A DNA stretch of 64,000 bases from Coptis chinensis (lineage: Eukaryota; Streptophyta; Magnoliopsida; Ranunculales; Ranunculaceae), in contig CM027381.1 of assembly GCA_015680905.1 (NCBI GenBank), forward strand, positions 92,405,501-92,469,500. The letters run 5' to 3'. Of the stretch, positions 1,936 to 61,479 are shown piece by piece. Both the position numbers and the translations under genes were made by a program. Within the stretch, counting starts at the first letter, position 1. Every line of letters begins with the position of its first letter. The notes below the pieces were generated by a model. That model had not been told where the DNA came from. It was given only the letters and a program-made list of their open reading frames with translations, and did no database searches.

Positions 1936-2461
1936 ATAAGGAAGCGATCACGGAGCACCACATTGTGTGTGTTTCGGTATTGAGGAGGTTGAACTGTAAT
2001 AAACTTAAGGCAAAAAAACTGAAAGATGCTTTGCACAATTATTTTTTCTCTTATTTTTTTATCCATAAAAAGAATTGAATTGATATATGTCTAAAAACAG
2101 TGCAGCAACACCTAAAGAATTAGTAACTAGGACCAGACCCAGACACAAACACTCTTATATGGAAGAACGACCCCCCACCCACAAACCATGCATAAAGCAG
2201 CAAAGGAACAACAAGCAAAAAGATAGATAGCTTCAAACATTTTCGTATTTTTTAGGAATTGATACATAGTAATAATAACAAAAAGCACTGTTACATTGGA
2301 GCAAAGCGGCAGCGGTACTGTGAAACCAACCACAATTCTCACCGTCCACTGCACAACAGTATCCAAGTGCATTATCTCAACATTTTAACATTGTTCACTT
2401 TAGAGATTACTTCATGATTCTTATTATGACTACATTAGGTCTCCCTATCAATTCCAACATA

Positions 2462-2800
2462 CACTACACCATAAAAGGTGTTTACTAACGGTTATATTCG
2501 TTATTTATATTTTTATTAACGGTTATATCCGTTAGCTCTGGGGCGTCACTGTCACTTAGGCCAATTTTAGTAACGGATATAACCGTTACTGATTAATAAT
2601 TTTAGTAACGGTTATATCCGTTACTAAAATTCTTTGTAACAAATAGCCAACTGTTGATGGCCCAATTAAATGTTATTTCTAATGGATATATCCATTAGTA
2701 ATGGATGTGCTATTTACTAACTATTGTTTGTAATGGAAATAACCGTTAGTAAACTACAGCCACTAAAAAAAAATCCTGGGTCAAATAATGTAACAAATAT
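2462..2800. repeat. CACTA left end: 10-bp TIR and subterminal repeats
   Basis: After the 10-bp terminal repeat, about seven copies of an 18-bp, nearly palindromic motif follow between 2488 and 2800 in both orientations (TAACGGTTATATCCGTTA and variants with TAATGG). In CACTA elements such subterminal motifs are the transposase binding sites. Confidence 0.85.
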
Positions 2801-3879
2801 ATCCATTACTAACTTTTAGTCCAAGAAAAAAAAAAATTCTTCCCTGCAAACTTTTAGTCAAATTTTTTCCACCCTGCAAATCTAATTCTTCCACATCTGA
2901 CTATTCCATCTCATATAAATATCTACACAACAACTCAAACAACAAATGAATAACAAGAAAAACCAATAACCAATTAGACTTTATTGAAATAAAACCACCA
3001 ATCCAAATCTCAATTTACATAGAAAGAAACAAAGCCTCCAATCCAAATAACAATTTATATTGAAACAAAAACAAAGTCTCACAATGAGTTTTCCTACTTC
3101 CTTCCTTGATTCATTTCTACCATATACAGATAGACATATATTGACAAACCTAACAAGCACATGGTTCTCATTGTCTACTTGAACAAAAATGTTTCCTAGC
3201 CATAGCACAGAAGCCAGCATAGCAATGTACTCTCTTGATCATCTTTACAAAGTCAAACAGTATCTAACGCCTCCTGATCAAATGAAGGAAACAAAAACCA
3301 TAAGCTATGTTGCCATTATCTTTAGATATATATTATAGTTGTACCCTCTTGGCTCTATTTTTTGAGCATTCACAGAGTCTCCAATATTTGTTAAATTCTT
3401 TGGCTAATTACGAAAAAGTAAGAGACTAATATGGAAAAATTAGATAATTTGAGCACTCACATCGACACCAGTTTTTTCTAAACTCTATTACTAATTACAA
3501 AAAAATATAATATATAGAAGGAAACAATCTCATCTAGAATTTCACAAACGAAAAAAAATAGGACACAAAAAAACTAAATTGCTAAAAACAATAGCTTCCA
3601 CCCTAAAACTCTTACCCAACAAAGAATAGTTTTCACACTAATCTTAGGTGAAATTTAACATAACAAAGTTTCTTTCTAGAAAAAGATAATGAAATATCAA
3701 AGGAAAAAATGAATTGAGTTGCTTGAACATTTATTTTCTACATTTGTTAACCTCACATGTGACTGACAAAAATGAAAAAATAAAAGTCAACTAATCATAA
3801 AATAAGTAACTGTGTACACTAAAAGCTAAGTGTACACCTAAAACTAAGCGGACAACATGAAACTAAGTGTACACCCAAT
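2801..3879. other. CACTA interior, no gene seen
   Basis: AT-rich DNA between the left subterminal repeats and the minisatellite. No protein similarity was recognised. The Helitron 5' terminus expected before the minisatellite, by comparison with the copy at 41460-46144, was not found here. Confidence 0.5.
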
Positions 3880-6720
3880 ACTATATGAAACTAAACTCAA
3901 CGAACAATTAATGGGAAACCGAAAACTGGATGCAAATGCATCGAACTAATCTCAAATAATATTTAATGGAAAATCGAAAACTTGATACAAATGAAAACAC
4001 TAACTAATCTTAAAAAGTAATTAATGGGAAAATAGACTATGGATACAACTGCATTAAACTAACCTTAAAGAATAATTAACGGGAAATCAAAACTTGGATG
4101 CAAATACATCGAATTAACATAAAAAAATAATTGTCGGAAAATCGAAAACTGGTTGGAAATGCATTGAAGTAACCCTCAATGATTAAATTAATGGGAATCG
4201 GAAACTAGATGCAACTGCATTGAACTAACATCAAAGAAAAAGTAACTATAAATTGGGAACATGATGCAAATGCGTAGAACTAATCTTAAATAATAATTAA
4301 TGGAAATCGAAAACCGGATGCAACTGCATTGAACTAATCTCAAAAAATAAACTAGATGCAAATGCATTGAACTAACCTTAAGAAATAATTAACGGAAAAT
4401 CGAAAACTGGATGCAAATTCATTGAACTAACCTCAAACAATAATTAACGGGAAATCGGAAACTATATGCAAATGCAACCTTATCGAATAATAAACAAAAA
4501 ATAAAAAACTGGATGCAAATGCATTAAAAAAATCTCAAAGAATAATTAACGGGAAATCAAATATTGGATGCAAATGCATTGAACTGACCTCCAAGAACAA
4601 TTAATAGGAAATTAGATGTAAATGCATTGAACTAACCTCAAAAAATAAATAAAGGGAAATCGAAAACTAAATGCAACTCCATTGAACTAACATAAAAAAA
4701 TAAATAACAGAATTGAAAATCAGAAACTGGATGCAAATGCATTGAACTAACCTCAAAACATAGTTGTGTTATATGTTGTGGGAATGTCTCAATAAATATA
4801 GTTTTGCATTTAAAATAGTGTTTATCTTATCTATTTTTGTATGATTGGGAACGCCTTGCTATTCAAGTAGCTTCAATGAACTTCGCATTATTAGGCAATC
4901 TCACAAAACTTCAATCAAACTTCTATTATTAAACAACAAAATGAAGTTGAAGGGTTTTATCAAGGGCGAGTTCTGTTTTTTTAAATGGATAGCGGGGTTT
5001 TCACGTTATAAGAAATTTGGATGAGTGATCAATATAATAGTTATGTATATATAGTTGTATATATTTTTCAGAATAATTAATATAACATCACACATTCGTA
5101 GATAATCTTTGAAGATCCTATATAGTGAGTCATGTATAAATTAAAGAATAATTAACGGGAAATCGGGAACTGGATAATTTTTTATGACGATCCCACATAG
5201 TAAATGAAACATAATTTATTTTTATGTCCTGTTTGAAGTTGGTATTATACACCACATTGGATAATTAAAAGAAAATCGGAAACTGGATTCAAATACATTG
5301 AACTGAGCTTAAAGAGTAATTAATAGGAAATCAGAAACTTTATGCAAATACAATAAACCAAACTCAAAAAGTAATTAACTCAAAATCGAAAACGGATGTA
5401 CCTCATTAAACTAACGTCGAGAATAACTAGAGAAAATTATAAATTGGATGCAAATCCTTTAAAAATATTTAACGGGAAATTGGAAACGGTATGCAAATAC
5501 ATCAAACAAACTTCAAATAATAATTAATGGAAAATCGGAAACTGGATGCAAATGCATTGAACTAATCTCAACAAATAATTAATAGAAAATCAAAAACTGA
5601 ATGCAACTACGTTGAACTAACCTCATAGAATAATTGGCGGGAAATCGGAAATTAGATGCAAATGCATTAATCATTGAAATAACCTTAAAGAATAGTTAAC
5701 AAAAAATCAGAAACCGGATGTAATTGCATCGAACTAACCTCAAAGCATAAATAATCAAAAACTAGATGCAGATATATTGAACTAACCTCAAAGAGTTATT
5801 AACGGGAAGTCATAAACTGTATGCAAATATAATAAACTAATCTCAAAGACTAATTAACGAAACATCGAAAAATAGATGCAACTGTACTGAACTAATCTCA
5901 ATAAATAATTAATGGAAAATCATAAATTTGATGCAACTACATTGAACCTAAAAAAATAATTAACGGGAAATAAAAACTTGATGCAAATGCATTGAACTAA
6001 CCTCAAAGAACAATTAACTAGAAATCGAAAATTGGATGCAACTACATTGAGCTAACCTCAAAAAATAATTAACGAAAAATCAGAAACTGGATGCAACTAC
6101 ATTAAACTAAAATAAGAGATTAACTAATGGTAAATCATAAATTGGATGCAATATCTTGAAGAATATTTAACGGAAAATCAGAAATTTGATACAAATGTAT
6201 TGAAATAACTTCAAAGAATAATTAACAAGAAATCAGAAATCAGATGGGTCAAACTAACTTCAAAGCATAAATAACCATAAATTTGAAGCTAGATGCAAAT
6301 GCATTGAACATCGAAACTAACCTCTAAAAATAATTAACTGGAAATCAGAAATTGGATGTAGATGTATTGAACTAATCTGAAAGAGTAATTAACGAGAAAT
6401 TAGAACCTGGATGGAAATGCAATGAACTAATCTAAAAAACTAATTAACGAAATATCAAAAATTGGATGCAACTGCACTAAATTAACCTTAATGAATAACT
6501 AACGAGAATTCATAAACTTGATGCAACTGCACTAAATTAACCTCAAAGAATAATTAACGAAAAATCAGAAACTTGATGCAATTGCATTGAACTAACCTCA
6601 AAGAATAATTAATCGAAACCGGAAACTAGATGTAATAACTACATTGAACTAACCTCAATGAATAATTAATAGAAAATTGAAAACTTGATGTAAATGCATT
6701 GAACTAACCTCAAAACATAG
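3880..6720 (+). repeat. Minisatellite, about 55-bp unit (array 1)
   Basis: Dozens of degenerate units of about 55 bp each contain GGATGCAAATGCATTGAACT, then a CCTCAAAGAATAATTAAC-like part, then GGGAAATCGGAAACT. Units drift by substitutions and small indels, and the array is interrupted at about 4740-5160 by a unique block. The reverse complement of the same unit makes the array at 42650-45540. Confidence 0.9.
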
Positions 6721-7078
6721 TTCTATTATTTGTAGGGGGAATATAATGTCTCGACAAGTATAGTTTTGCATTTTAAATTGTGTTTATCATAATTCTTTTA
6801 TTATGATTGAGAGTGTCTTGCTATTCAAGTAGTTTCAATATCATCTTCGCCACATTGAACATTCTCATCAAACTTCAATTATTAAACCTAACAACTAAAA
6901 GAAGTTGATAGGTTTTATCAAGGTTTGGTGTTTCTTTTTATTGAGAGTGGTACAAGAAATTTGAATGAGTGATTAATATAATTTTCATATACATCTCATA
7001 GCTCTGCATAATTGCTAATATTTTTTAAAATAATTTAATATAACGACACCTCGTTCGTAGGACGGGTTCGAAAACTAG
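3880..7078 (+). mobile_element. Helitron 3' portion nested in the CACTA element
   Basis: The right end reads a short GC-rich imperfect hairpin (about 7049-7066), then TTCGAAAACTAG, followed by T at 7079. This fits a Helitron 3' terminus (hairpin, CTRR, insertion 5' to T). The layout is minisatellite array, a unique block of roughly 390 bp (about 4740-5130), a second array, the same block again (about 6700-7078), then CTAG. The complete Helitron at 41460-46144 has the same array-block-array-block order in reverse orientation, so the two belong to one family. A 5' TC end was not found, and this copy appears cut at its left side. No Rep/helicase is encoded. Confidence 0.72.
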
Positions 7079-7079
7079 T

Positions 7080-8278
7080 TAATAACTAATAGCAAAAGAG
7101 CTATAAACCTAATAATAGATATAAGTAGTATTAGTATACTTTACAAGTATAATGTTTAACTTTGAGTTACCACATAAGCAGATGGAATCATTCAGTCAAG
7201 TGGCCTATGTTTCTGTAAGAATATTTTTGTCTTCCTTTAGTTGGAGCTTTTGCCAAATGGACCCATTGACTTGATCCTATAATCTTCACTTTGAAATTGA
7301 AGAAAAAACAACCAAAAATAGTAGTTGTAAACCAACCAAAAATAGTGCATACCCTTCAAAAATAATATTGTTGCCTTGGTCAAGTATGTTGGGGTTCAAG
7401 ATTTAAAAGGTGGGCAGACCTGAATAACATAGAACACGAGGAATAAACTACCTTTTTAAGATAAAGCCTACAACAATGGCCAAATGCGAGATGATGCCAT
7501 TAACGATATTGACACGTCAAGCTTGCTGGCCAAAAGGTACATGTTTAATACATGCATGAGCTGATTATTCTTACTGAAGTGCAAGTGATGCAATTAAAAC
7601 GAACGTAAGCCCAGTGTATTGTCCACATTGTTGTAATGTTGGTCTAAGACACAAGACAAATAAATAAGATACACTACTGCCACTACTTAAAAAATGGAAA
7701 ACAATTCAAAGTCATTTGTATGTAAATCTGGATTTAAAACCAAAGAATGGTTGCAAGCATTTGTTAACAAACTTAAGTACTCAATAACATAAAGTTATAT
7801 CCACTTCACAAGTAGCATAGTTAAAAGACAAATTTTGGAACCTACCTTAGTTTTGCATTGCATATTACAATTGCAAGGATCAAAAACAGAATTGAGGCAG
7901 CATAATGGAATAAGGCTACTCGTTGTGAGCCTAAAAAATATGGGGAAAAAATGAAACAAAATACACTTGATTAGTACAAAAGTCAAGGCAAACAAGCAAT
8001 GAAACTTAGAAGTAGTTACTCGCCTCATATCGTAATCTCAGGAAAAAGGGACAATTGCTTCTTGCCTATTCTTTGTGGGGCTCACTTGGATAAATTCCTG
8101 AATTCCATCAGCATCATCTTAAGGAAACAAAATTCTCACTACAATGACTTGTAAAATAATTGAAAAAAACTATCAAAGTATTTACTCATACCGTAAGAAA
8201 CAGGAGAAGTGGGAGAGTTTTCTGAGATTTTGTGGAAAACTTTCCACTATTTCAAATAGATAATCCTTGAATTAAAAT
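7080..8278. other. CACTA interior, no gene assigned
   Basis: Reading both strands gave no family I could name. Some minus-strand pieces near 8050-8130 might be eroded coding DNA, but no motif supports this. Confidence 0.4.
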
Positions 8279-8442
8279 TCTTCCCTTTCGCCCAAATAAT
8301 CTCCAATCATGGTTTGATTAAGCCCATTAGTGTCTTTCATAAACAAAGCAACTTCTTCTGGAGAACCGCTGATTTTCCTCAAACTTATGAGAAAGTTAAT
8401 GCCCTTGGAAGGTTTTCGATTGAATAGTGAAATGCCCTTTTG
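8279..8442 (-). pseudogene. Sec7-domain ARF-GEF (BIG type) fragment
   Basis: On the minus strand about 54 residues read as the start of a Sec7 domain: KGISLFNRKPSKGINFL, then SGSPEEVALFMKDTNGLN and IGDYLGERE. Sec7 domains catalyse GDP-GTP exchange on ARF GTPases and drive vesicle budding; the wording matches the BIG subgroup of large plant ARF-GEFs. The similarity starts just after an in-frame stop and ends soon after the GERE motif, so most of the roughly 190-residue domain, including the catalytic glutamate loop, is missing. It lies inside the CACTA element, about 1.4 kb from the Tudor-SN block and on the same strand. Seen: motif string. Inferred: captured, dead fragment. Confidence 0.8.
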
Positions 8443-9794
8443 CATTTAAACCATGACACTGTCACCGCTGCTCATCACCAAAAGTAAGAAAGAGCCGAAC
8501 CCCAAATAAAAAACATTACAGCAATACGAAAAGAATGCAGAAACAATCAAGTAATGAGACAGATGGCGTAAGGAAGATCAACAAGGACGAACTGAGATCA
8601 TTCATAAAAATCATATGCAATTCAGCTCCCAGCACCTCACATAAGCTAGATAAGAATAAAGAGACCTAGTAAAATATAGATGAATAAAAAGAAGAATGCC
8701 AAAAGGGTACTCATGTTTCTTTTAGGTAAGAATTTTACATGATTAGTCAACTATTACATAACAATGTTTCCATATATTGTTTTGTCTTCCCATTCCACAC
8801 TATTATATTTAAAACATGGAATCCTGAACTTTTTCAGTAAACATATAGGAAAATGACAATAAAGCATGGAAGCCCATACTCTTAATGACATTAAGACCAC
8901 CAAATCTAAAAAAATTGTGAAATCTGTTCTAGACAAATCAACTATTACTAGGAGAATAGTTGCATGAGCTAGATAAGAGACTTAGTTTAACCTTTGAGCA
9001 ATCGAGAAACAATAATCATTTTTAGGGCCTGAAAACAATCATTTCTAAAGAAAGAGAAAGGGCTCATAATATTATCAAAATGTGTACATGTTTCAGTGGC
9101 ACAAAATTTATCTCTGTGGGTGGAAGGGCCTGTAAATAAATAAACACAACATTTAAGTAGAATGTAGAAGAATTATAGCCATGAAGACATGTGCTAAGCA
9201 ATATGATACTCTTACAAACACATACCACCAATCAAAAAATATAGTTAGAGAAGTATAAGGGCATTTATACTGCAAAAGGAAATTCCCTTTATGCGTGTAT
9301 GACTAAGCAGCTATCTGGCATCCTTGGAACTTAAAACCACCAATAAGCTAATTATCAGTTCAAGTGTTACTATTAGTATATGGATTCAGTGATCTTTCAC
9401 CCCCATTTCCAACCCAGGAACCCCCCATGTAAGAGCTTGAAATCAAGATCACTTGGAAGAACCGCTAGAAGCATCCAATGATTTCAGCTTATATTCACTC
9501 ATCAGTCTGGACCAAAACACGAAATTCCAATTGAAATGGCAGGAAAGCCATGATAACAAATTAAATATTTTGCCGTGGACGCATTTTATTAAGAAAGGGA
9601 TTCTTTTTATCCAAAGTAACTAAGAAGTCCATTTTCATTAACATATGGCGCCACAGTAGTAGATAATGTGAAACATTCTCAACCAAATGCAAATAAAAAA
9701 AAACTACATTTCCCTTGTCGTCTTTGTTGTTTAAGCTGTCAAAAAGAATAAAAAAAAGAACTATAATTCTGTAGTTGATGTGGGAACTGAAATG
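8443..9794. other. CACTA interior between captured pieces, no gene seen
   Basis: No recognisable coding sequence on either strand. The stretch may hold captured intron or spacer DNA. Confidence 0.4.
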
Positions 9795-11386
9795 TGCTTT
9801 CTTATCATTGCTCGGTTCCAGGAATTATCTGCACTAGATTGGGCAAGGACAATATCACCCTTCTTGGGATTAAAAACATCAATGATGAATGCCTTGCGGG
9901 TTAAGTGAAGCGAAGTTCTTTCTTTGGATGGAAGCCACTTTCTGGTCCTCAACTGTTTGGACATAGAACTTACCGCTTCCAAGAACTTCTGTAACTACAA
10001 CCTGGATGAGAAATTTTAGACATGTTAATTACTCTAATAGAAAAAACGCAAAAAAAAATATAAATAATGTACTATTTTTACTAGGCACCTTGAGAACTTC
10101 CTTCTGCCTGCTTTCAACAGCTTTGGACCATTGACTACTTCCTGCCCTTCAACATAGTTCTCCCATATCTGAAAAAAATAAAGATTACTCATAGGAGATG
10201 GAAAGTTCAATGCAAAATCAAAGAAAGCTACCAAATGCATTTACTGCGTGATCTAAGTCACTTTAGAACCAAATTTCTAGTTAACAATGCCTATTAACTA
10301 TACAGTTAATATGAAGTCATTAACATACAATTACATATTAGACAAAGTTGGGCTATGTTTTTCTTGCTTGCATAGGTAACTGTATTTTCTGTTTTAGAAC
10401 TTAAAAAACAAATAAATAAACAAATCACCCAAATAAAATTTCTTCTTCTTTTTAGAGAATATCAAGAATCCCCAACAGATTTGAATCTGGATCAATTAGA
10501 CAATTCTATTGAAGCTTCAAAGGTTTTGCATATAGCTAGGAGGGCATCATAATAGTTTGAATGTTCATCAAAATCCCGGTGCCTGATGACAGCCCCAAAG
10601 CCACGAGAAACCACCAGCTCAGCAATGTTTCCACTTGGTGTTTGGCTGCTTGATGCAGATGGAGTAGGAGTTGATTCATCAGCCTCAACTTTGGATGGAG
10701 AGACCAAGAAGACGGATCCAAAGTCCATAACTCTAGAATCAGCTAATCCAGGTACAGGTACATCACCCATGCTGACTTTTCTAGAATATTCCATTGAAAC
10801 GTTTACCTTAAATATGCAAATCAATATGAAAGAAAGTAAAAAAAAAAAAAAAAAACATGTACACCGAAACTAAACAGTTAATAGTGGAATTTTAGATGGA
10901 GAAAATAGTAGCATACCTGGCGGCCTATAAGGCGTGTCCGTAGGAACTCCCTTGCTTCACAAGCATAAGGAGCAGGCTTTTCATCTCTACGAGGATTACC
11001 CATCTTGGGAGACCTTATACTTGAGAGATTCACTTTCGCCCGTTACGCTAATGGACTACCATATGGGGCGAAGATCATCGAAACAATGATGCGGTCTCCA
11101 CTTACAACTTCCACCACCTGTAAACCAAAAGATATAAACAGGGACAAGAAGTATAAGCAGTAATATAGGATGCACATACGTCTTGTTAAAGGCAATACTT
11201 GAAAAATTCACTTGCCTTTCCAATAAAGTTTTAGTCGTGAATTGCTTTAGAATTTGTGGTGGGTGGAACATAGTTTGTCCAATATTTTAGCCGGTCCTTC
11301 TTTGCTTGAAGTTCAGCAGTCTTTAGCTTCCGTCTTGCCTCCTCTTCCATCATATTTGCACTCCAATACAAGTATTTAGCCAGCCC
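9795..11386 (-). pseudogene. TSN1: Captured Tudor-SN nuclease (TSN1) fragment with introns
   Basis: Tudor-SN joins staphylococcal-nuclease-like domains to a Tudor domain and acts in RNA stability and stress granules. Five minus-strand exon pieces are collinear with it. 11216-11386 encodes GLAKY...WSANMMEEEAR and WTNYVPPTTNSKAIHD. 10917-11117 encodes VVEVVSGD and SPKMGNPRRDEKPAPYA. About 10538-10806 encodes MEYSRKV, DSRVMDFGSVFL and ELVVSRGFG. About 10080-10165 encodes IWENYVEGQEVVNG. About 9795-10001 encodes VVVTEVLGSGKFYVQ and, in another frame, GDIVLAQSSADNSWNRAM. Most junctions keep AG/GT sites; the first uses GC-AG. Damage includes an in-frame TAA after AIHD, another TAA in the second exon, and frameshifts in the last two. 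Coding between the third and fourth pieces is missing. The block covers the SN4-to-Tudor part only. It sits inside the CACTA element, hence DNA-level capture. Confidence 0.92.
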
Positions 11387-11949
11387 CTACATGTTGAGGA
11401 TGCTATGAATAGATCAGCACACAATCAATTAGTATTTTCCAGTAAATTCTCAATCAAATCATGCATACATGCTACTAATTTGAGCAACAATCAACAGTCA
11501 ACTGAACGGTATTCTCTAAACATGAAGTCTGTTGAGTATTTCAGTATTAATTTCTATTTAATACTGAAATTAGCTCGAAACAGTAACAAGGATCTCTATT
11601 AGAAAAAGAAAAACAAGGATTTCATTATATTTTCTCATTAGTGCAAAAACATGTTTACAAACAACCAAGAGGAATGAGATAGAGAGAGAGAGAGATAACC
11701 AGCAAAAAAACAACCTTTTTAAATCGAGAATCTATTAAGAGATTGACCTGGTTCGTCGAGAACCTAGTGAAGAGAAATTGGAGAAGTTAGGGTTCTTCAG
11801 AGAGAGGTTTTTTTTTTGGTTTTCTGTCGTACGAAAAAAGAGGCGAAATTAGAATTCCCTTTTTTCTAAGTGTTAGCCGAAAAAAAGAAGAAAAAAGAAG
11901 GGGGAAATGTGACCGCCTTAACAAATTTGCCAGTTTGCATATTTGTTTC
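11387..11949. other. CACTA interior, right side, no gene seen
   Basis: Contains a short GA repeat near 11682-11696 and purine-rich DNA. No TSN exon upstream of the captured block was recognised. Confidence 0.4.
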
Positions 11950-12129
11950 CTTTCTAACGGATATAAATATTAGCATATCCCAACATAACCGTGAAAACAT
12001 TATTAAATATTAATTTAAGATTTTAAGCAACACTTGTAGTAGTAAGTAACGGATAATAACTCAGTAACAGTTATATCCGTTACTTATTGAAAATTTGCAT
12101 TGTTACAAAATAGCTATTCTGGTGTAGTG
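11950..12129. repeat. CACTA right end: subterminal repeats and 10-bp TIR
   Basis: At least three degenerate copies of the TAACGG...CCGTTA motif precede the terminal TGGTGTAGTG. The inner sequence differs from the left end beyond the first 10 bp, apart from scattered matches. Confidence 0.85.
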
Positions 12130-12132
12130 ATA

Positions 12133-12987
12133 CCTCCTGCATTAGACTCCCTCAAGAAGGTCCTGTTTAAGCTCCATCAAGCCACAAAAGTACCACACTC
12201 CCTCAGAAACAGGTAAAGGTGTTTTCTACAATTAACTGTAACAAGCTTTCTAAAGATTCCCTAACCCAACAAAATTCCATGCCAAAATTTCCAGTTGACT
12301 GTAAATTAACTTAACGATATTCCCTATTACATTCGACCAGCTATAGTGCCATATAATTTCCAATTTATATCAGCAATAGACTGGTAATAAGCCTTCATAA
12401 GTCCTTTAAATAAAAACCCTGGGACAAGTAGTACAGGTGATCATTCTCCAACACCAATGGCGATTAAGTATGGTCTCTCCAAAAAGCTGGAGCTTACTTG
12501 AACAATCATGCTTTCCTTACAGACAACGTTATCATATCCATCATACAAACAACATTACCATATACATTGGGATTGTTTTCAAAAAGTTGAAGCAGGCATG
12601 TCAAACTAGGAAGAGATTTATAGAATGTATTCATGTAACGAATCATAAACCTTAGAGAAAATCACGCACGAAAAAATCGCGTGTTCTGTGCTCTCAAAAT
12701 CAACCGGTGGCAAAAGAAGACTTCCTCTAAACCAAACCTAATCTGCTAAAAAGAACAACTGGCCAAAGACTGAAACAAACTAACAGATATCCACTTTTCT
12801 GTTCAAAGGGACTCAGAATTTAAGAGGTCTTGAGTCATCTCCACACATTCTTGGTGAATCGGCAAGTCCAAAACAAGCCATTTTTCTTCAGTCTACTCCA
12901 CACGTCATTTCTTTAACCAGATAAGTCCTCACCAATCTCAACACAAAATACATTATTACTATTTCTTCCTGCATTCCTATCTGACTA
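12133..12987. other. Flank right of the CACTA element, no gene seen
   Basis: No conserved reading frame was found between the target-site duplication and the second copy of the 261-bp repeat. Confidence 0.45.
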
Positions 12988-13247
12988 CCTAAACTCTTGC
13001 CAGTGGAGCACTGGCCATGGCCAAAACATTTACTCTGCAGTTGTTTTAATCATGAAGAAACGTGGTTAAAATGTTATGAGCCACAGATTGTTTTGTTAAC
13101 CGTATTTAGTAAATAATCTCCACAGAAATAAGAAGTACAAAAGATGGCAAACAAGGTTATCATGGGAAACGGATCTCAAGATCACCTATCCCCTAGCTTT
13201 TGAACCCGTTATCCCTCACAGGCTAACATTATTAGAAACTTAGATAT
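12988..13247 (+). repeat. 261-bp direct repeat, copy B
   Basis: Near-identical to 1675-1935. Its right edge, GAAACTTAGATAT, abuts the first codons of the cellulose synthase exon, where an intron acceptor would be expected, so this edge marks a breakpoint. Confidence 0.88.
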
Positions 13248-13498
13248 CTGATGCCATTAACAATGGGTATGGCTCATGGGGTCCCTTATTCGGTAAGTTG
13301 TTCTTCGCTTTCTGGGTGATTGTTCACTTGTATCCTTTCCTCAAAGGATTGATGGGGAGGCAGAACAGGACTCCCACTATTGTAGTCCTTTGGTCTATTC
13401 TACTTTCCTCAATTTTCTCCTTGCTTTGGGTCCGTATTGATCCATTCTTGCCTAAGCAGACATGACCGATCCTTAAACAATTTGGAGCGGAATGCTAA
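13248..13498 (+). pseudogene. Cellulose synthase (CesA) last-exon fragment
   Basis: CesA proteins polymerise UDP-glucose into cellulose at the plasma membrane. One open frame reads [19 protein letters not shown], then [32 protein letters not shown] and [11 protein letters not shown]. These are the last transmembrane helices of CesA. A TGA then replaces the glycine codon of the usual QTGP...KQ.G..C tail, and the natural terminus (LKQFGAEC, TAA at 13496-13498) still follows in frame. The FLPKQ tail resembles secondary-wall CESA4-like proteins, but this subgrouping is tentative. The catalytic domain is absent, and upstream sequence is an unrelated repeat. About 240 bp of AT-rich, 3'-UTR-like DNA follow. 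Confidence 0.93.
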
Positions 13499-39040: not shown

Positions 39041-40074
39041 ATGTTTTGGTATACATGCATTTTGGTATTTTAGTTCAGCTCCACCTGCTGTTGCTAATAA
39101 AACCAAATATCTTCAGACCTCAAATCACAAGGCCTGCAGCAGTTTTGCCCTCAGTTGCTAAGAAGCAAACATCTTTCGTATTAGGGGTGGTCTGACAGAT
39201 TTTAGTTCTAAACTTCTGTAATTTTAGTTTTGAAAATTCTTTTGTGTAATTTATCACATGTTAAGACCGTTCAGATTGAATGTGAAATGGAACTTCTGAT
39301 CAAGTATGATATTGGTAGAAGACATTAGTAGACACTCCATATTTTAGTTCTGACATATATCAGAACAATAGAGTAGTCTGACAAATATTTTAGTTCTGAC
39401 ATATGTTAGTTCTGAAGCTAAAGGAATTACCAATGGAAGTAACAAGCACAACTTCTTGAATTGATGCATGAATAAAAACTACATAATCACTAACTAATTA
39501 GGATGGTAAACATGGTTTGAAAGTCATCCAGCAAGATAGAGCATTCCTAATGGCTGCAGTCTGCACTAATAGCATTTTCTAATAAGAGAAATCTGATTCG
39601 ATTGGAACAAATTCGATCAGCAACAATTTTATCTCCAAACTAATAAAATTGGTAAATCAAACTGGTAGTCAAACTTAAAAATGAGTAGAAGTGATCTCAT
39701 TTGAGACAATACTACTACTACAAGTGATCTCATTTGAGTCTATAGTAGATCCTTAAATGACTTTCTAAATTACAATTCAAAACGAAAAAAAAAACAGTCA
39801 TCCAAACACTAAAAAACTAACTTCAGCCTTCAACTTTCCTATCCATTTCCATTTCAATTTTCCTATACATAAATAAAACCCATCAAATCAAACATAAAAC
39901 ATTCAATTCAACAAAAATAAAAATTATGAGAAAAACAAAAAACGACGAGTAGATGATATAAAGGGAACAACCTCTTCATCAGATTCATCCAAATCAATAT
40001 ACTTCGTAAGAACTTCAACCAAATATTCCATACAGTTCAAGAAAACAACAATCTGCATCAATTACCTGACAGTG
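39041..40074. other. Intergenic, no gene seen
   Basis: Contains short local repeats of TTAGTTCTGACATAT near 39340-39410. No coding similarity recognised. Confidence 0.45.
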
Positions 40075-40875
40075 TACTCTGAATAACATCTAAAACATAA
40101 CCATCAGAAGGCACTAAACAACCACCGCATATAATGAACGTATATATGTTACATACCTTAGCAAGGGTAGCAAGCACATGGTCAATGATCCGTTGTTTAT
40201 GCTCACGTACTCGAGTTATATAATCCAATTCTCTTTCTTTGCATGGTGCAAATACATGAAAAGCCGATAAAACCATCGAAGGCGATATAATGAACGATAT
40301 ATGTTACATACCTTAGCAAGGGTAGCAAGCACATGGTCAATGATCCGTTGTTTATGCTCACGTACTCGAAGTTATATAATCTAATTCTCTTTGCTGCATG
40401 GTGCAAGTACATGAAAAGCCGCATAAAAAATTAAATGAGAACATTGTCAAATTAACAAAGAGTTTTTCTTTGTTACAAAATTTAAAAGTTTGAAATCATG
40501 TAAGAATCAAACATAACCAAACTGTGAAAAAGGAACTTCATTGGTAGATTTAGGTGGTGCGTCGACAACAGAAATATCAAATGCACTTGCAGGTGGTGCC
40601 TTATCCATGGCTGATAATCAAACATTGATAAGGAAATTGCAGCAAATAAATGAAAGTGGTATACAACTATGATCAGGAATAACTATTAAGGGAGGTTCGG
40701 AGTCATGCAAAATGCAACCATGTCACCAGTACCTCCCATTAGAGTTATCGACTTTTGTATAATTAAAATATAAAGAGTTCCGATCCACTGGAACTTCTAC
40801 CAAAGCTACACGCATGTACTATAGTTTAGTGTGCATAGCAAAAGAGTCTAAAAACATAAAAGAGGCAAAGAAAGA
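40075..40875 (-). mobile_element. Helitron transposase gene 5' part, copy 1
   Basis: On the minus strand an ATG at 40608 opens MDKAPPASAFDISVVDAPPK and STNE. Further on come RELDYITRVREHKQRIIDHV and LATLAKV. The same peptides and flanks occur at 52740-53356, where they lead into a Helitron-like N-terminal protein. In this copy the exon with the EHKQRIIDHVLATLAK phrase is duplicated in tandem (40131-40286 and 40287-40430, period 156 bp). Downstream exons are missing. Identity of the family rests on copy 2. Confidence 0.6.
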
Positions 40876-41541: not shown

Positions 41542-42204
41542 ATTTTCGAATCAGAATATATTTTTATTGAAAATAAACCGAAATACATTAATGACCAACG
41601 ATTATGGTGCATAAGTATTTGGAAACTAATTAAGAGATCAAATTGAGATAGCCTCATCACTTTGTGGTTTAGGATATTAATCCGTAATTTTCAGATAGAA
41701 TTATCTTAAACTCGATCTATCTTGTATAATAGTTTTATTATATTTATGGTCATTTAGCGGCAAATTTTCGAATCAGAATATATTTTTATTGAAAATAAAC
41801 CGAAATACGTTAATGAGCAGCGATTATGATGCATAAGTACTTGGAAACCAAGGGATCAAATTGAGATAGCCTATTCACTTTGTGGTTTAGGATATTAATC
41901 TATAATTTTCAAATAGAATTATATTAAACTCGATCTAACTTGTATAATAGTTTTCTTAGATTTATGGTGATTTAGCTGCAAATTTTTTAATCATAATATA
42001 TTTTTATTGAAAATAAACCGAAATACGTTAATGAACAGCAATTATATATGGTGCATAAGTACTTGGAAACTAAGGGATCAAATTGAGATATTCTATTCAC
42101 TTTGTGGTTTAGAATATTAATCTGTAATTTTCAAATAAAATTATTTTAAACTCGATCTAGCTTGTATAATAGTTTTATTAGATTTATGGTGATTTAGCGG
42201 TAAA
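41542..42204 (-). repeat. Three tandem units of about 220 bp
   Basis: Units begin at 41542, 41764 and 41982. Shared phrases are ATATTTTTATTGAAAATAAA, AGGGATCAAATTGAGATA and CTTTGTGGTTTAG. They differ by substitutions and small indels. The array lies just inside the Helitron 3' hairpin. Confidence 0.88.
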
Positions 42205-42649
42205 TCATCACCGCTTAAACTACGTACTAATGTGTACAAATCACTAAAACAGATTGATTGTTTCCATATCCTCAAATAATACACTACTCCCACTTGAAAA
42301 GATTTATCATATGAACGTCCTACTTAACGGGTGCCGTTATATTAAATTATTCTAAAAAATATTAGCAACTATGCATAGTTATGAGATATGAAAATTATAT
42401 TAATTACTCATTTAAATTTCTTGCACCACTCTCTATAAAAATGAAGCACCAAATCTTGATAAAACTAATCGACTTTTTTTTTATTGTTAGGTTTAATAAT
42501 TGAAGTTTTGTGAGAATGCCCAATCTTGGCGAAGATAATATTGAAGATACTTGAATAGCAAGGTATTCCCAATCACAATAAAAAGAATTATAATAAACAA
42601 TACTTAAAATGCAAAACTATATTTGTCGAGACATTTATCCCCTCTACAT

Positions 42650-45540
42650 AAAATACAAATATGTTTTAGGGTTATTAGTTCAATACATTTGCACCAAGTT
42701 TATGATTTTCCATTAATTATTCTTTGAGGTTAGTTTAATATAGTATGTTGCATCCCGTTTCTAATTTCTCATTAATTATTCTTTGAAGTTAGTACAATGC
42801 AGTTGCATCAAGTTTTTAGATTTTCCGTTAATTATTATTTGAGGTTAGTATGCAAATCAATTACATCCACTTTATGATTTCCGTTAGTTATTAATTAAAG
42901 TTAATTCAAGACGCATCTGATTGCATCCAGTTTTTGATGTTTCGTTAATTAGTCTTTGAGATTAGTTCATTGTATTTGCATCCAGATTCCAATCTCCCGT
43001 TAATTACTCTTTGAGGTTAGTTAAATATATTTGCATCCAGTTTCTGATTTCCCATTAATTATTTTTCTAGGTTAGTTCGATAGTTTACAATTTCTATACA
43101 GTTTGCATACATGTAAGAGTCTATTTTTATAAACTCACTTTCGTTTTGGGTTCATAATTACTTGTAATTACTCATATGAGAAGGCTAAAAAAGTGGATAT
43201 TTATGCCTTGAGGTCAGTGCGATGCAGTTACATCTGACTTCCGATTTCTAGTTAACCATTTTTTTATGTTATTTCAATGCATTTGCATCCAATTTTTGAT
43301 TTCCTGTTAGTTAATCTCTGATTTTAGTTTAATGCAGTTGCATCCAGTTTTTAGTTTTCCATTAATTATTCTTTGAGGTTAGTTCAATGCAGTTGCATAT
43401 AATTTTAGATTTTATGTTAATTGTTATTTGAGGTTAGTTCAATGCATTTGCATCAAGTTTCTGATTCCGGTTAATTATTTTTTTGAGGTTAGTTCAATGC
43501 CTTACATCAAATTTATAATTTTCCGTTAATTATTCATTTAGGTCGGCCTCGGTGTAGTTTCATCCATTTTTAATGTTTCATTAATTAGTCTTTGAGATTA
43601 GTTCATTGCATTTGGATCCAGTTTCGATTTCCTCGTTAATAACTCTTTAAGGTTAGTTCAATACATCCGCATCTAGTTTCGATTATTTATGCTTTGAGGT
43701 TAGTTGATATAATTATATCCAGTTTTTTATTTTCCGTTAACTATTCTTTGAGGTTATTTCAATGCATTTGTATTTAGTTTTCAATTTCCCACCAATTATT
43801 TTATGAGGTTAGTTCAATGCAGTTGCATTCGTTTTTTGATTTTATGTTAATTATTTTTTGAGTTAAGTTCAATGCATTCGCATTCAGTTTCCGGTTTCCC
43901 ATTAATTATTATTTGAGGTTTGTTTGATGTATTTGCATACTATTTCCGATTTTCCAATAAATATTTTTCAAGGATTTGCATTCAATTTCTAATTATCCGT
44001 TAGTTACTCTCTGTCATTAGTTTAATGCAATTTGCATAAAGGTTATGATTTCCCATTAATTACTCCTTGAGCTCAGTTATGTATTTGAATCTAGTTTCCA
44101 ATTTCCTTATAATTATCCAATGTGGTGTGTAATACCAACTTCTACTGATCCATCTGTAGTGTCATTAAAAACATGACATAAAAAGTAAATTATACTTAAT
44201 TTACTATGTGGGATCATCGAAGATTATCTAGTTTTCGATTTCTCGTTAATTATTCTTTAAATTATGCATGACTCACTATGTGGAATCTTCAAAGATTATC
44301 TACAAATGGGTGTTGTTATATTAATTATTCTAAAAAATATTTGCAAATATGCATAACTATTATATATTAATATTATATTGATCACTCAACCAAATTTCTT
44401 ATAACGTGAAAACCTCACTCTCCATTAAAAAAAATAACTCACCTTTGATAAAATTCTTCAACTTCATTTTTTTGTTTAATAATAGAAGTTTGATTGAATT
44501 TTTGTGAGATTGCCTAATAAGGGGAAGTTCATATATATTGAAGCTACTTGAATAATGGAGTTCCCAATCATCTGGAAAGAGATAAGATAAACATCATTTT
44601 AAATGCAAAACTATACTTATCGAGACATTCCCACAACATATAACCCAACTATGTTTTGAGGTTAGTTTAATGCATTTGTATTTAGTTTCTGATTTTTCGA
44701 TATTTATATTTTGAGGTTAATTCAATGCAGTTGCATCCAATTTCCAATTCCCATTATTTATTTTTTGAGATCAGTTTAATGCAGTTGCATCCAGTTTCTG
44801 ATTGATCGTTAATTATTCTTTTCGGTTAGTTCAATACATTTGCATCAAATTCCCAATTTTCTATTAATTGTTTTTTGAGGTCAGTTCAATGCATTTGCAT
44901 CCAGTTTCTGATTTCCCGTTAATTATTCTGTGAGATTAGTTTGATGTATTTGCATCAAGTTTTCGATTTCTCATGTTTATTATCTGATAAAGTTGCATTT
45001 GCATCTAGTTTCCGATTTTCCGTTAATTATTGTTTGAGGTTAGTTCAATGAGTTTGCATCTAGTTTCCGATTTCCCGTTAATTATTTCTTGAGGTTTTGC
45101 ATCCAATATATTTTTTGAGATTAGTTCAATGCAGTTGCATCCGGTTTTCGATTTTCCGTTAATTATTTTTTAAGATTAGTTCCACGCATTTGCATTATGT
45201 TCTCAATTTATAATTAATTTTTCTTTGAGGTTAGCTCAATACAGTTGCATCCAGTTTTCGATTTCCCATTAATTTAATCTTTGAGGGTTAGCTCAATGCA
45301 TTTGCATCCAGTTTCATTTTTTCGACAATTATTTTTTTTTATGTTAGTTTGATGTATTTGTATCTAAGTTTTGATTTTCTCTTTATTCTTTGAGATTAGT
45401 TTAATGCAGTTGTATCCATATTCTTTTATATTAATTACTTTTTAAGATTAGTTTAATGCTTGCATTTTGCATCCGTTTCGATTTCCGTTAAATATTATTT
45501 GAGGTTAGTTGAGCATTTGCATCCAGTTTTCCGCTCTCCA
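42650..45540 (-). repeat. Minisatellite, about 55-bp unit (array 2, reverse orientation)
   Basis: Reverse complement of the unit in 3880-6720: each copy holds GAGGTTAGTTCAATGCA, TTGCATCCAGTTT and TTCCCGTTAATTATT. It is interrupted at about 44260-44650 by the same unique block that interrupts array 1; a second block copy lies at about 42300-42660. Confidence 0.9.
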
Positions 45541-46144
45541 TTAATTGTTTTTGTCGTTAATTTCATTAAATATTATATATATTTTAAAATATTTGTCATT
45601 ATTGCTTTGCCGTTATTATTATTTTTTTTTTTTCATTTTTATATATTTTGTATAATTATTTTTAACTATATTTTGAAGTCATGTTAAGGATATATTCAAA
45701 TAAGTCTGTTTTATTATAGATACTAAAATTGTATGATTTGTAATAGGAAATTAGTTTATACAAATCACCTATTTTTTAGCAATTTTTTTTTATTTGATCA
45801 AATATATAAGAATTGGAACACTAAAACTCTCCAAATATAAGAATTAAAATACACTCAAATTCTCCAAATCACCTATTTTTTTTAGTAATTTTTTTTTAGA
45901 TTTCTACAAATCACCTATTTTTTAGTAATATTTTTTATTTGATCAAATATATAAGAATTGGAAATACACTCAAACTCTCCAAATATAAGAATTAGAAATA
46001 CACTCAAACTCTTCAAAGATCTTTTTCATATTGTGAGAGATCACATAAGATAGAAAAAAAAAAGCCTAACTCTCATATTAGAGTCCACATAGGAGAGAGA
46101 AAATCCTTCTTTAAAGGTCTCTCCTTTAGTATATAGATAGTAGA

Positions 46145-47546: not shown

Positions 47547-48320
47547 CTACAACAATAGAGCTAAGGCAACAGAAAATATTGTGACTGAGAAACCCCTAAC
47601 CACAACTCCTGGTGCAGAGTTAGAAGGGGGTCCACCTGCTGCCGGGGGCGGGGACATGGAAGTAATGGGTGGAGTGGCAGAGCTTGATGGTGGCATGGCG
47701 ATGCTTGGTGGAGGAGACAAAGTTGGAGTTCTAGTAGGAGGTGGTAAAGTTGGAGTTCTAGTAGGTGGTGATACTGTTGCACCCACTACGTTGATGGATA
47801 ACTTTTGGCCTGCTGCGCAGTGACCTTGGACGCTGCAGAAGTAGTATTGAAGACCTTGAGTTGTAAGAGTGACTGTTACTGGGCCTGTAGTTGGAACTGG
47901 TCCAATGGGGCTGCTTGCATCGCAAGCATCATAAGCTGTCCGTGTTACTGTTGCGACATCATGCATCATGCTTGCAAAGTTGAAAACTGAAGAGAAACAC
48001 CATTCAAATTAGATAGAAAAAGAAATAAAACAACAACAAAACAAAAAACAAGAATGTACATCAATAAAACTGCTGTCTGCGGTGAGAACGAAGTGTTTGT
48101 GTTTATGCGAAGATGTGTTCTTACCTAGAGTGTCGTTAACTCTAAAAGTTTGTCGAGAAGCCCAGGAAGAGTAGAAAGTAGGACCAGCAGGAGGGACGGC
48201 CCAGCCTGAGGCGTCTCCGACAATATGTGTTGTTTGGGCTGATGTGCAGTGTAACAAAGAAATTGCCACAAACAAGAAACCAACAAGCCTATTCATGCTG
48301 CAAGCTGCCATCTCTTTCAA
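47547..48320 (-). CDS. Stellacyanin/uclacyanin-like phytocyanin (GPI-anchored type)
   Basis: Phytocyanins are small extracellular blue-copper proteins thought to move electrons at the wall or plasma membrane. Two exons, 48125-48320 and 47547-47986, with GT/AG sites and matching phase encode 211 residues. I take the ATG at 48320; one at 48311 is equally possible. A signal peptide (NRLVGFLFVAISLLHCTSAQ) precedes the plastocyanin-like domain: THIVGDASGWAVP, DTLVFNFASMMHDVATV, YDACDASSPIG, YYFCSVQGHCAAGQKLSINV. Copper ligands are H of HDV, C of YYFC and H of GHC; the axial position is Q (GQKL), as in stellacyanins. The disulphide cysteines are present. A Pro/Ser/Thr-rich linker with a repeated PPTRTPTL and a hydrophobic tail (VALALLL) suggest a GPI anchor. 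No lesion is seen; a TATA box lies upstream. The single intron position fits the family. Confidence 0.93.
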
Positions 48321-57389: not shown

Positions 57390-59210
57390 TCCCTCAAATT
57401 GATGTTGGCCGATCAAAAAGCATCAATTTGCTAATAAGAAACTGGTGTCGTTGTCTAGTCATCACCTTGGTAAACACATCAGCGGTCTGAAGATCTGTTG
57501 TGATATGCGGAAGTGTGATAATGCGATCATCATAAGCATCACGTATAGAATGGCAATCCACTTCTATGTGCTTAGTGCGCTCATGGAACACAGGGTTTGC
57601 AGTAATTTGAATGGCACTAGTGTTGTCAGCATGAAGTGGAGTAGGCTCTAACTATGGACAACCAAGCTCCGCTAGAAGGCCCCGAAGCCAAACAATTTCA
57701 GAACAGGCAGAAGACATAGCACGATACTCAGATTTAGTGGAAGATTTATACACACGACCCTGCTTCTTACTACACCAGAAAATGAGAGCCGGCCCAAGAA
57801 ACATACACCAACCAGTAATCGAGCGACGAGTATCTACACACCCAACCCAATCAGCATCACTATATCCCACCAAATCAAGGGGAGAATTGGCAGGAAAGAA
57901 GAAACCCTATCAGGATTCAGGAGTACCCAATAAGTAACGAATAATGCGACGAACCGCAGCCAAGTGTAGGTGCCGTGGAGCATGCATAAATTGGCAGACT
58001 TGCTGAATAGCAAAAGAGATATCAGGTCGTGTAATAGTGAGATAATTCAAACTACCCACCAATTGGCGATACAAAGAAGGATCAGAAAGAAGATCACCCT
58101 CCTCTTTGCGATACTTCACATTCACCTCCAAAGGAGTATCAACCGATTTACCATCCTAAAGACCAGCCAAGAGAATCAACTCCTCCATATACTTATGCTG
58201 ATGCAAGTAAGTCCCGCCTGGACTTGAAAGCACCTCAAGACCTAAGAAATATTGTAACGGACCCAAATCCTTCATATGAAAAGACTCCTTAAGACAGTCT
58301 TGAAGATGAGATATCAATCTAGAGTCAGTTCCAGTAATAACAATATCATCCACATAGACTAGAAGAATCACAATACCTGCCTTGGTTGCAGAGATGAAGA
58401 GAGACGAATCATACTGACTCTGAGTAAATGAGAAACCTAGAAGAGTGGAACGAAACTTGTCAAACCAGGCACGAGGAGCCTGTTTCAATCCATAAAGCGA
58501 GCGCTTTAGCTTACAGACATCAGAAGAGGGCAAAGAAAAGAGACCCGCAGGGGGTGTCATATAAATCTCTTCCTTAAGGTCGCCATGCAAAAAAGCGTTC
58601 TTGACATCCATCTACCGTAAAGGCCATCCCTTAGAGGCAGCTATGGCAAGAATTGTGCGAACTGTCGTTGTTTTGGCAACCGGGGCAAAGGTCTCCTCAT
58701 AATTCACGCCATATTTTTTACGATTGCCAAGAGCCACCAACCGGGCCTTATATCGATCAAGTGATCCATCAGAGCGAAACTTAATAAAATAGACCCATTT
58801 ACAGCCAATGGGTTTGATGCTAGTAGGACACGAAACAATATCCCAGGTGTGATTCTCCTGAAGAGCTTGAAGTTCCTCTTGCATAGCCTTCACCCAACAT
58901 GGTTGGGTAACTGCTTCAGAATAAGAATTAGGAACTGTAATATGAGATAAGGCTGCAGAGAAGCCATACAAATCAGGAGGACGAGTAATATGAGAGGATC
59001 GTCTAAGAGCATCAGAATCTGGAACGAGATCAGGGTGAAGGGGCGGAGGGGCTGGAGGTCGTTCCGATCCAAGTAATGGGTCGGGAAGGGGCGTATGGGC
59101 TGGAGGTCGTCGTCTCTGATAAACCAAACCTGGTTTAAAATGCTCGATAGACCGAGAGCCATCATCAAAACTAATGAGCGGGGCCAAGTCCAAAGAATGC
59201 ACAACATGCT
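57390..59210 (-). pseudogene. Copia reverse transcriptase and RNase H region
   Basis: RT phrases include KPIGCKWVYFIKF, YKARLVALG, MDVKNAFLHGDL and the catalytic VYVDDIVITG. The RNase H part has GYSDADWVGC, RRSITGWCMFLG and SSTKSEYRAM. Fossil, broken. Confidence 0.92.
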
Positions 59211-60430
59211 GTTGAAAGTAATACTGAGTCTAAAAAAACCACATTGCGAGAGATACGAAACCGATGTGCAACACCGTCATAGCATACAAAACCCTTGTGA
59301 GCAGTCCTGTAACCCATGAAGGCACACCGAACAAATTGAGCAGCAAGCTTATGACGTTCATGACGGGGCAAATGGACAAAGCAAATACACCCAAAAGTAT
59401 GTAACATGTCATAGCCAGGATGTGTACTGTACAAGCGAAAATGAGGCGAGTCAAAATCTAAATGTTGAACAGGAAGTCGATTAATCAAGTGAATAGCTAT
59501 GGAGAGGGCTTCAACCCAAAATCTGGGCGAAACTGAAGATTCCAAGAGCAAAACTCGAATAACATCTAACAAGTGATGATTCTTTCTTTCAGCTACCCCA
59601 TTCTGCTGAGGGGTATCTGGACAAGAGTGTTGAGAGAGAATACCCTTTTCTTGCAAGAAAGCCTGACAGTCATGAGACAAATATTCCCCGCCATTGTCGG
59701 ACCTCAGAATCTTAATGCTGGATGAGAATTGTGTCTCAATGAAAGCTACAAAAGTCTTAAGAACAGTACTGGCCTCACTCTTAGAACGAAGAAAATATAT
59801 CCAAGTGTAACGACTGAAATCATCAATAAACGTCACAAAATATTTATAATTAGCATGTGAGGTGACGGGTGCCTTTCCCCAAATATCACTATGAATAATC
59901 TGAAAACATTTATCAGCTCGACTCCCATGAACTGGAAATGGAAGAGTCTTGCTTTTCCCAAGTTTACAAGTATCACAATCAAAAGACAAACTAGAAAACT
60001 GAGACTGATCTTTATCTTTATTACCCAATAAACCAATTTTCAACAAATTAGAGACAAAATTAGAGCATTGGGATGGCCCAATCTTTTATGCCAAATTTCA
60101 TGCCTACGTCCAACACTAATACAAGCCAAAGACATAGTAGTAGGAATAGTAAACTGTAAAGGAAACAATCTTCCGACTTTAGGCCCCTTCGCTATCACCT
60201 TCCCTGACCCCTGATCCTGCACAAGACAACCGACACGGGAGAAAAACACATCACAGTTATTGTCAACTAATTGACCAATTGAAATCAGATTAGTTGATAA
60301 ACCCGGAGAGACAAAAATAATATTAAAAGAAGACCCAATATCACCAACTGCAATGATCGGGAGGGTACTGCCATTAGCAATCTGAATGTGTTGCATCCCA
60401 GTATATCGCCGAATGTTGTGCAAAGAATTA
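59170..60430 (-). pseudogene. Copia protease/integrase region
   Basis: Contains the pre-integrase zinc part (HKRLGHPN ... CDTCKLGK) and the integrase core (IHSDIWGKAP, YFVTFIDDFSRYTW, LRSDNGGEY, QQNGVAERKN). Fossil, broken. Confidence 0.9.
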
Positions 60431-60434
60431 CAAC

Positions 60435-61403
60435 TAGGGGTGGGAATTTGGCCCTAACGACCCTAACCCGGCCCTGACTGACCCGACCCTAAGCCCTATA
60501 AAGCCCTCACAACTAAAGCCCTCACAGAGTTTAGGGCAGGGCCGACCCGGCCCTAATGCCTTCTAAGGCAGGGTCAAGGCTAAGGTTCTGAAACATAGGC
60601 CCGACCCTAACCAAGCCCTAGTTATAATTTCACTATAAAATACACAACTAAAACTATCCAACTCCTTGTTATATATTTTCAATTAAAATAACACTGTCCT
60701 TTGTAATTTATCACTTACCGTATGGGTACTTCTAATAACTTGTCTTATATCATAAAAACTTGTAAACCTAATTGTTTCTATCTCACAACTCACGTACACC
60801 TCACAACTCCCCATCTAACCTAGTCGCCAAGAACAATAATGAGCACTGGGCACTAGCCTAATGAAAAATAGGTTGACGTCAGTAAAAACTCATTCCATAC
60901 TCTTATTTGTCTTTGTGTTCTTCAATGTTAAATGTAATTTTGGTGAGATTTGAGTACAAGAAATGACGGATTTATGTCAGTGAAAGCTCATTCCAAAATG
61001 TGTCTTGTGCATTTTCACTGTAATTTTGAAATATAAATATGAGTCTCTATGTACTTTAGTTTATTAGATTGTGGATATGCATTTTAAATTGTTGGACTTA
61101 TCAATAATTATTACTAGATTGGTTGTTATTCAAATTTCAAAGTGGTGGGACTTTGAGTTTGCAAATCTTTGAATTTTTTTTGTAATATAAATGAGTTTTA
61201 AAACCGATGCGATAAAAGAATAAAATATAGGCCCGCCCTAGGCCCTAAAGCTGTTAAAGAGGGCTTAGGGTAGGGTTAGGGCTTGAAATTTAGACTTATG
61301 ACCCGCCCTATATAGGGACTTTAGGGGCTTTCCGACCCTAATAACTGAAAGGCTTTAAATGTTTAGGGTAGGCTAGCCCGACCTGGCCCATTGCCCACCC
61401 CTA
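60435..61403. mobile_element. Non-autonomous hAT-type element (969 bp) nested in the copia fossil
   Basis: Ends TAGGGGTGGGAATTTGGCC and GGCCCATTGCCCACCCCTA form an imperfect inverted repeat. An 8-bp target duplication ATTACAAC flanks it (60427-60434 and 61404-61411), as expected for hAT elements. The ends are rich in CCCTAA/GGCCCT motifs, while the middle is AT-rich. No transposase is coded. It inserted after the copia element was in place. Confidence 0.9.
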
Positions 61404-61479
61404 ATTACAACTACCTGTCATATGATTGGATGCTCCGGAATCAACAAACTAGGTAAAAGAAACAATAATGCTCTTACCT

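Follow-up and report, generated by a model that had tools for sequence, protein, structure and literature searches.

Pack-CACTA transposons carry fragments of host coding genes between their ends, and the donor genes are located elsewhere in the genome (Gisby and Catoni 2022). For their capture of host DNA, PMC8903248 proposes a fusion of tandem insertions. The soybean CACTA element Tgm-Express1 is a composite of exon- and intron-bearing fragments from several unrelated host genes (PMC1947982, Zabala and Vodkin 2007). In Chenopodium, CACTA-like elements have taken up pieces of genes and also contain satellite arrays; the captures mentioned by name measure 80 to ~204 bp (PMC8978399).

The element described here is located in a window of 64 kb (C5:92405501-92469500), the whole stretch of DNA analysed, in a searched genome of 935.6 Mb. 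It likewise has host coding-gene fragments between its ends and donors elsewhere: the Tudor-SN gene (TSN) at C5:39.5-45.9 kb and a donor-like ARF-GEF locus on C87. Compared with the Pack-CACTA of PMC8903248, the fragments here retain introns, and short shared sequences and filler connect them. The mosaic of unrelated, intron-bearing host fragments resembles Tgm-Express1. The soybean element is inserted in an F3H intron, and transcripts containing its fragments are reported in PMC1947982, whereas the window element is known from sequence alone. Host gene fragments and tandem arrays are also common to the Chenopodium elements, but in comparison with the captures named in that source the 1.9 kb capture is large and has introns, and the arrays are part of a nested insertion of Helitron-like type. 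A search of one literature collection revealed no paper with both 'Tudor-SN' and 'CACTA'. The process at this locus is known and the case, though clear, is an ordinary one; it is more notable as pieces of the same gene occur in several elements.

The element, its ends and its internal composition

Two copies of the sequence CACTACACCA are present in the 64 kb, one at 2462 on the plus strand and the other at 12120-12129 on the minus strand; two or more occurrences were present in 1 of 100 shuffled sequences. These terminal inverted repeats define an element of 9,668 bp (2462..12129) with matching ends and ATA flanks. The 3-bp target site duplication ATA is located at 2459..2461 on the left and 12130..12132 on the right, based on flank comparison and paralogous empty sites. 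The joined flanks, a query of 228 nt, align in one piece at C5:53168149-53168376 (98%) and C3:28826138-28826367 (93%); the match of the same query to the window's own site is split in two parts. The flanks are repetitive, with 23 matches for the joined-flank query, and these two sites are therefore paralogous empty sites. Contiguous empty sites and one duplicated ATA assign both ends to a single insertion. Two separate insertions mimicking one element were ruled out on the same grounds. The earlier note had placed the TSN pieces inside one CACTA element with CACTACACCA ends and an ATA duplication, which is borne out by the empty sites; its concern that the flanking ends might stem from two different insertions did not materialise. 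A repeat of ~265 bp is present on both sides of the CACTA element in the same orientation (1671-1935 and ~12984-13250, 97%).

The left subterminal region (2462..2760) contains repeated TAACGGATATAACCGTTA-type motifs (repeat families D16/D17, inverted pairs I1-I6). Subterminal copies of D16 are found near both ends, six at 2482-2748 and two at 11951-12082. Inverted repeats beginning with CACTA/CACTG, the 3-bp duplication and subterminal repeats at both ends place the element in the CACTA superfamily (En/Spm-like). Related left ends are present elsewhere in the genome, among the best 40 of 2,104 candidates scored. No stop-to-stop frame of at least 150 amino acids was found within 2462-12129, and the window had no Transposase_21 match among the best 150 of 2,715 candidates genome-wide. 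Judged by the frame scan and the Transposase_21 search, which could miss short remnants, the element is non-autonomous and without its own transposase gene. Transposase_21 is abundant in the genome, with at least 150 matches (all 150 above the cut-off among the best 150 of 2,715 candidates).

The right-end module (11394..12129, minus strand) is common to at least 15 TSN-free loci among the matches listed (80-88% identity) and overlaps the adjacent TSN block by TTGAG. In the relative L033, the transposase-associated domain PF13963 (Pfam) is encoded beside this module. GTAAGT follows a conserved segment of the module in all four relatives compared. The module is probably the promoter and first exon of an ancestral transposase gene, reading left.

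The cargo also includes a piece of an ARF-GEF gene (8260..8646, minus strand) with 94.6% identity to C87:156743-157125. Its Sec7 exon at 8275-8445 (minus strand) was recognised by Pfam (PF01369, E 2.5e-13). We take the gene to be BIG-like. This ARF-GEF capture occurs in other elements of the window's CACTA family, with or without TSN. Three ARF-GEF pieces (C7:16885598-16886168, C9:24498110-24498669 and C3:21456055-21456608), in which query positions 840-1185 adjoin 1645-1870, look as if an intron were missing and may be retrocopy-like or the result of deletions. Next to the ARF-GEF piece in the window, a multi-copy cargo piece (8663..9504) continues beyond 9504 at C6:37.50M and C5:19.20M. Neither of these two loci gave a TSN match in the genome search with donor C5:40000-45999.

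A nested insertion (3319..7078, plus strand) has TC...CTAG termini between A and T and carries arrays of 55-bp tandem repeats. The sequences flanking it abut without the insertion at at least 14 loci among the matches listed. Helitrons start with 5' TC, end with 3' CTAG downstream of a hairpin and insert between A and T without a duplication. The insertion is called Helitron-like from its termini and the abutting flanks alone. The tandem arrays were ruled out as a part of the CACTA element, being inside an insertion that is absent from at least 14 loci. A relative of the Helitron-like insertion is located in the window at 42316-45574 in opposite orientation (79% over 3.4 kb), also with 55-bp arrays. 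Elsewhere in the window, frames of a Copia-type retrotransposon in pieces (58156-62229, minus strand) and an open frame resembling phytocyanin with a proline-rich tail (47547-48008, minus strand) were recognised by eye.

The donor gene and the captured TSN blocks

The donor is a TSN gene on the minus strand of C5:39,512-45,924, ~92 Mb from the window on the same chromosome. A DNA search with 9795-11386 yielded eight genome matches (7/7 candidates scored), of which two at C5:40.8-43.8 kb represent one gene. The gene model, which runs from C5:45924 to C5:39512, has 15 exons; its splice sites are GT-AG apart from one GC-AG pair. It reads through 933 codons without a stop, with a provisional 3' end. 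Pfam detected SNase and Tudor domains in the protein, and the best PDB match is SND1 (3bdl). A reading of C5:40 kb as a further captured copy was ruled out, as it is the open donor gene. The Pfam SNase search of the genome gave three hits only, because introns split the domain. A single-exon protein search (10/10 candidates scored) gave seven matches, one each for donor, window, C4, C2 and C5:41.1M and two for C5:8.5M, and among these no second intact TSN gene.

The window contains two TSN blocks on the minus strand. Block 1 (10534..11398) corresponds to donor C5:42909-43774 with 94% identity. On the donor gene model, it comprises exon 8 (11216-11386), exon 9 (10917-11117) and the truncated 5' part of exon 10 (10534-10806), with introns. 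Block 2 (9501..10526) corresponds to donor C5:40585-41587 with 90% identity, comprises exon 13 (10089-10168) and exon 14 (9806-10001) with introns and has ATCA in common with the adjoining cargo piece at the junction. A 7-bp filler, TGCATAT (10527..10533), separates the blocks and is present in the C4 copy too. Donor sequence C5:41588-42908 is absent between them. Block 1 corresponds to SN3 and block 2 to the N-terminal half of Tudor; SN4, encoded by donor exons 11-12, is missing (numbering by the order of domains in the protein).

The five collinear exon pieces reported in the earlier note could all be placed on the donor, as exons 8, 9, 10 (part), 13 and 14. Its description of the content as SN4-to-Tudor has to be corrected: SN4 is the very part that is missing, and the domains present are SN3 and, in its N-terminal half, Tudor. 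Homology to TSN exists over the extent given at that time, 9795-11386, but the true span is wider, 9501-11398, and falls into two blocks. The note made no mention of the ARF-GEF capture, the nested Helitron-like insertion or the TSN pieces in other elements. The proposed splice sites hold in part. AG precedes all five exon pieces, and GT or GC is kept in three of the four pieces that have a 3' end; exon 14 has lost its donor site (ATAAGA versus GTAAGA in the donor gene) and exon 10 is truncated.

Both blocks align to the donor including the introns, and the capture therefore took place at the DNA level, in agreement with the earlier proposal of a capture by a CACTA element. A failure of the introns to align to the genome's TSN gene, considered there as a counter-argument, was not observed. 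A retrocopy of the TSN mRNA, that is, a processed pseudogene, was rejected, as introns are present and aligned. Differences between window and donor are evenly distributed over codon positions 1, 2 and 3, with 17/305, 16/304 and 16/304 for the summed blocks and 52/934 in introns. Block 1 has 12/214, 8/214 and 10/214 and 4/211 in introns; block 2 has 5/91, 8/90 and 6/90 and 48/723 in introns. Exons 8 and 9 have one in-frame stop each, and frameshifts put exons 13 and 14 out of frame. The even divergence and the broken frames indicate no protein function, and the alignments gave no sign of protein constraint on the window copy.

Jukes-Cantor divergence between window and donor is 0.041 for block 1 and 0.071 for block 2; between window and C4 copy, it is 0.070 and 0.059. 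Plant substitution rates are 0.7-1.3e-8 per site per year. With these general plant rates, which may not be this species' own, the donor comparison yields an age of roughly 1.6-5 million years.

Further TSN pieces and the number of captures

A genome search with donor C5:40000-45999 (20/20 candidates scored) detected pieces of the 3' half of TSN at ten loci besides the donor, seven pieces from the 5' end and two short matches of ~70 bp. The earlier note had proposed a search for further genomic copies with the insert, and one exists at C4:43.80M. It has both TSN blocks with the same breakpoints, the filler TGCATAT and the right end, with 94% identity over window 8643-12130; the right flanks differ. 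A left end was not recognised within the 20 kb examined. The C4 copy may be truncated and has presumably transposed.

Other loci differ in their ends or breakpoints. A CACTA element of 9,641 bp at C2:82829305-82838945 has different ends (CACTACTAAAAAAA) and an AGA duplication and carries donor C5:42058-43843 at 95.4% identity. The locus C5:8.54M has flanks and a right breakpoint as in the C2 element, a decayed right end and CAT on both sides (by eye). At C5:41.13M, the ends belong to the window's family, with a decayed left end and ACA on both sides (by eye). This element contains the ARF-GEF piece and TSN sequence corresponding to donor 39760-40225, 42016-43090 and 43637-44124. A CACTA of 4,331 bp (C5:41130487-41134817) is nested in the outer, TSN- and ARF-GEF-bearing CACTA (ACA duplication). 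Donor 42180-42655 or 42180-42429 is present at C7:89.56M, C3:107.69M, C5:78.58M, C1:16.87M and C1:46.07M; the boundary at 42180 and the flanking sequence are common to the four loci that were compared, all except C3:107.69M. Around the TSN pieces at C1, C7 and C5:78.6M, no CACTA end pair with equal flanks was found within 6-8.8 kb. Seven further places (C3:6721136, C4:74011632, C8:83432600, C3:80404121, C7:8642788, C1:18263442 and C7:8786383) match either donor 45650-45983 or the first 100 bp of this interval; all matches start at C5:45650 and perhaps represent a further capture lineage.

Pieces of TSN are found in another element of the window's family, in a CACTA family whose ends differ and at further loci, which implies that the gene was captured more than once. 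Among 833 ungapped columns, window and C4 share seven changes against donor, C2 and C5:8.5M. Three changes are shared by C2 and C5:8.5M, and one is common to all four copies. At four sites, C4 agrees with C2 and C5:8.5M, and window and donor differ from them; artefacts of the alignment or conversion may lie behind these. The TSN breakpoints differ between two CACTA families, which firmly points to two separate captures, and three to five captures are likely.

The TSN blocks of window/C4 and of C5:41.1M might go back to a single ancestral capture that spanned at least 4.4 kb (C5:39760-44124) and was later trimmed by different deletions. We consider this possible but doubtful. CACTA family and orientation are the same, and the older ARF-GEF capture is shared: C6:37.5M and C5:41.1M share an unbroken alignment (1,223 bp, 86.8%) that begins at the left end and reaches into the ARF-GEF piece, with an identical left breakpoint, and window and C6 align unbroken over 8260-9504. 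On the other hand, window/C4 and C5:41.1M have no TSN breakpoint in common. In 311 ungapped columns of six copies, no change is common to window, C4 and C5:41.1M alone, a weak argument as window and C4 share only two changes there. The C6 element has the ARF-GEF piece and the next cargo and gave no TSN match, which suggests either a later gain of TSN, possibly by separate events in window/C4 and C5:41.1M, or its loss from C6. A shared-site test of one versus two captures (P 0.007) was set aside because changes in ARF-GEF are inseparable from changes on the donor branch.

For comparison, an ARF-GEF search (31/31 candidates scored) also found many pieces, as for TSN, for a gene that was chosen because it is captured. 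A neighbouring gene, which we take to be PPR-like from its looks, had two further gene-length matches and an abundant repeat (best 40 of 533 scored, mostly repeat, so that small pieces could escape). A capture hotspot or an unusual recurrence of TSN capture is not established.

Capture route and possible effects of the cargo

The outer junctions of the TSN blocks provide information on the capture. At the right junction, TTGAG is followed by TAATAGG in the donor and by GATGCT in the element, and TSN-free relatives carry the same five bases. At the left junction, donor, window and C6 element all have ATCA. Beyond the right junction, all 14 other TSN-free loci share at least 33 bp with the TSN-free locus L032. 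Beyond the left junction, C6:37.5M and C5:19.2M, both without a TSN match, continue together for at least 976 bp. Relatives without TSN continue past both outer junctions, and TSN has thus replaced internal sequence of the element. Replacement at short shared sequences favours a mechanism of capture in which gap repair, following an excision of the element, is interrupted and the template is switched; TSN would have been copied during this repair. In this way, pieces of host genes would be copied at the DNA level into a non-autonomous CACTA. Transposase supplied in trans by autonomous relatives could then act on the ends for cut-and-paste movement, and the captured DNA would have spread by transposition. 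The structure of the element suggests such mobility. We are highly confident that the element is a Pack-CACTA, a non-autonomous CACTA with DNA-level copies of host gene pieces that would be moved by transposase in trans.

The tandem-insertion model, as outlined in PMC8903248, is a possible route for TSN as well. The element retains no internal copy of CACTACACCA, which speaks weakly against a fusion of neighbouring insertions since mutated ends would escape detection. The pattern of introns, short shared sequences and filler appears to fit interrupted gap repair at least as well. Another possibility is that TSN was captured once and that a later deletion with filler gave rise to the two blocks. 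The divergences from the donor do not differ between the blocks in the C4 copy (61/852 and 61/994, p = 0.40), but they do in the window copy (34/853 versus 67/993, p = 0.01).

Most likely, the TSN piece yields no protein and is carried along as neutral cargo. TSN protein binds and cleaves RNA and is tied to RNA-based control. The captured exons are in sense orientation to the probable promoter of the right-end module, and chimeric sense transcripts may be formed. Captured copies might act as regulators if such transcripts gave rise to small RNAs that silence or tune TSN; the earlier note had likewise considered small RNAs against TSN. The orientation to the promoter and the perfect copies of 987 of the 2,499 exonic 21-mers of the donor in nine captured copies, 379 of them in the window copy, are in line with this role. 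We regard it as unlikely: the donor gene model is open, and the window-donor differences are even over codon positions, as unconstrained cargo would show. A slightly less likely view is that the elements prefer TSN as cargo or retain it once captured. Long perfect matches to the gene persist in several capture lineages, which belong to at least two CACTA families and possibly to another class of transposon, and the elements may gain by silencing camouflage or by small-RNA pressure on TSN. An exon-shuffled gene for a new chimeric protein is very improbable. Several splice sites are intact, the right-end module probably provides a promoter and a first exon, and fragments of Tgm-Express1 were spliced as exons of host transcripts according to PMC1947982; yet the stops in exons 8 and 9, the frameshifts in exons 13 and 14, the even divergence and the lost splice donor of exon 14 argue against it. 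Least probable, with hardly any chance, is an origin as a retrocopy of TSN mRNA or as two unrelated insertions resembling one element, given the introns, the contiguous empty sites and the one ATA duplication.

New aspects are TSN as a captured gene, an intron-bearing mosaic together with its relatives, and the capture of one gene by different elements. Donor, second copy, TSN-free relatives, breakpoints and junctions are present in one genome and document the stepwise build-up of a DNA transposon from host genes. They allow a comparison of two capture routes, gap repair with template switching and fusion of neighbouring insertions. If matching small RNAs exist, the captured TSN copies would offer a natural test of captured fragments feeding back on their parent gene.
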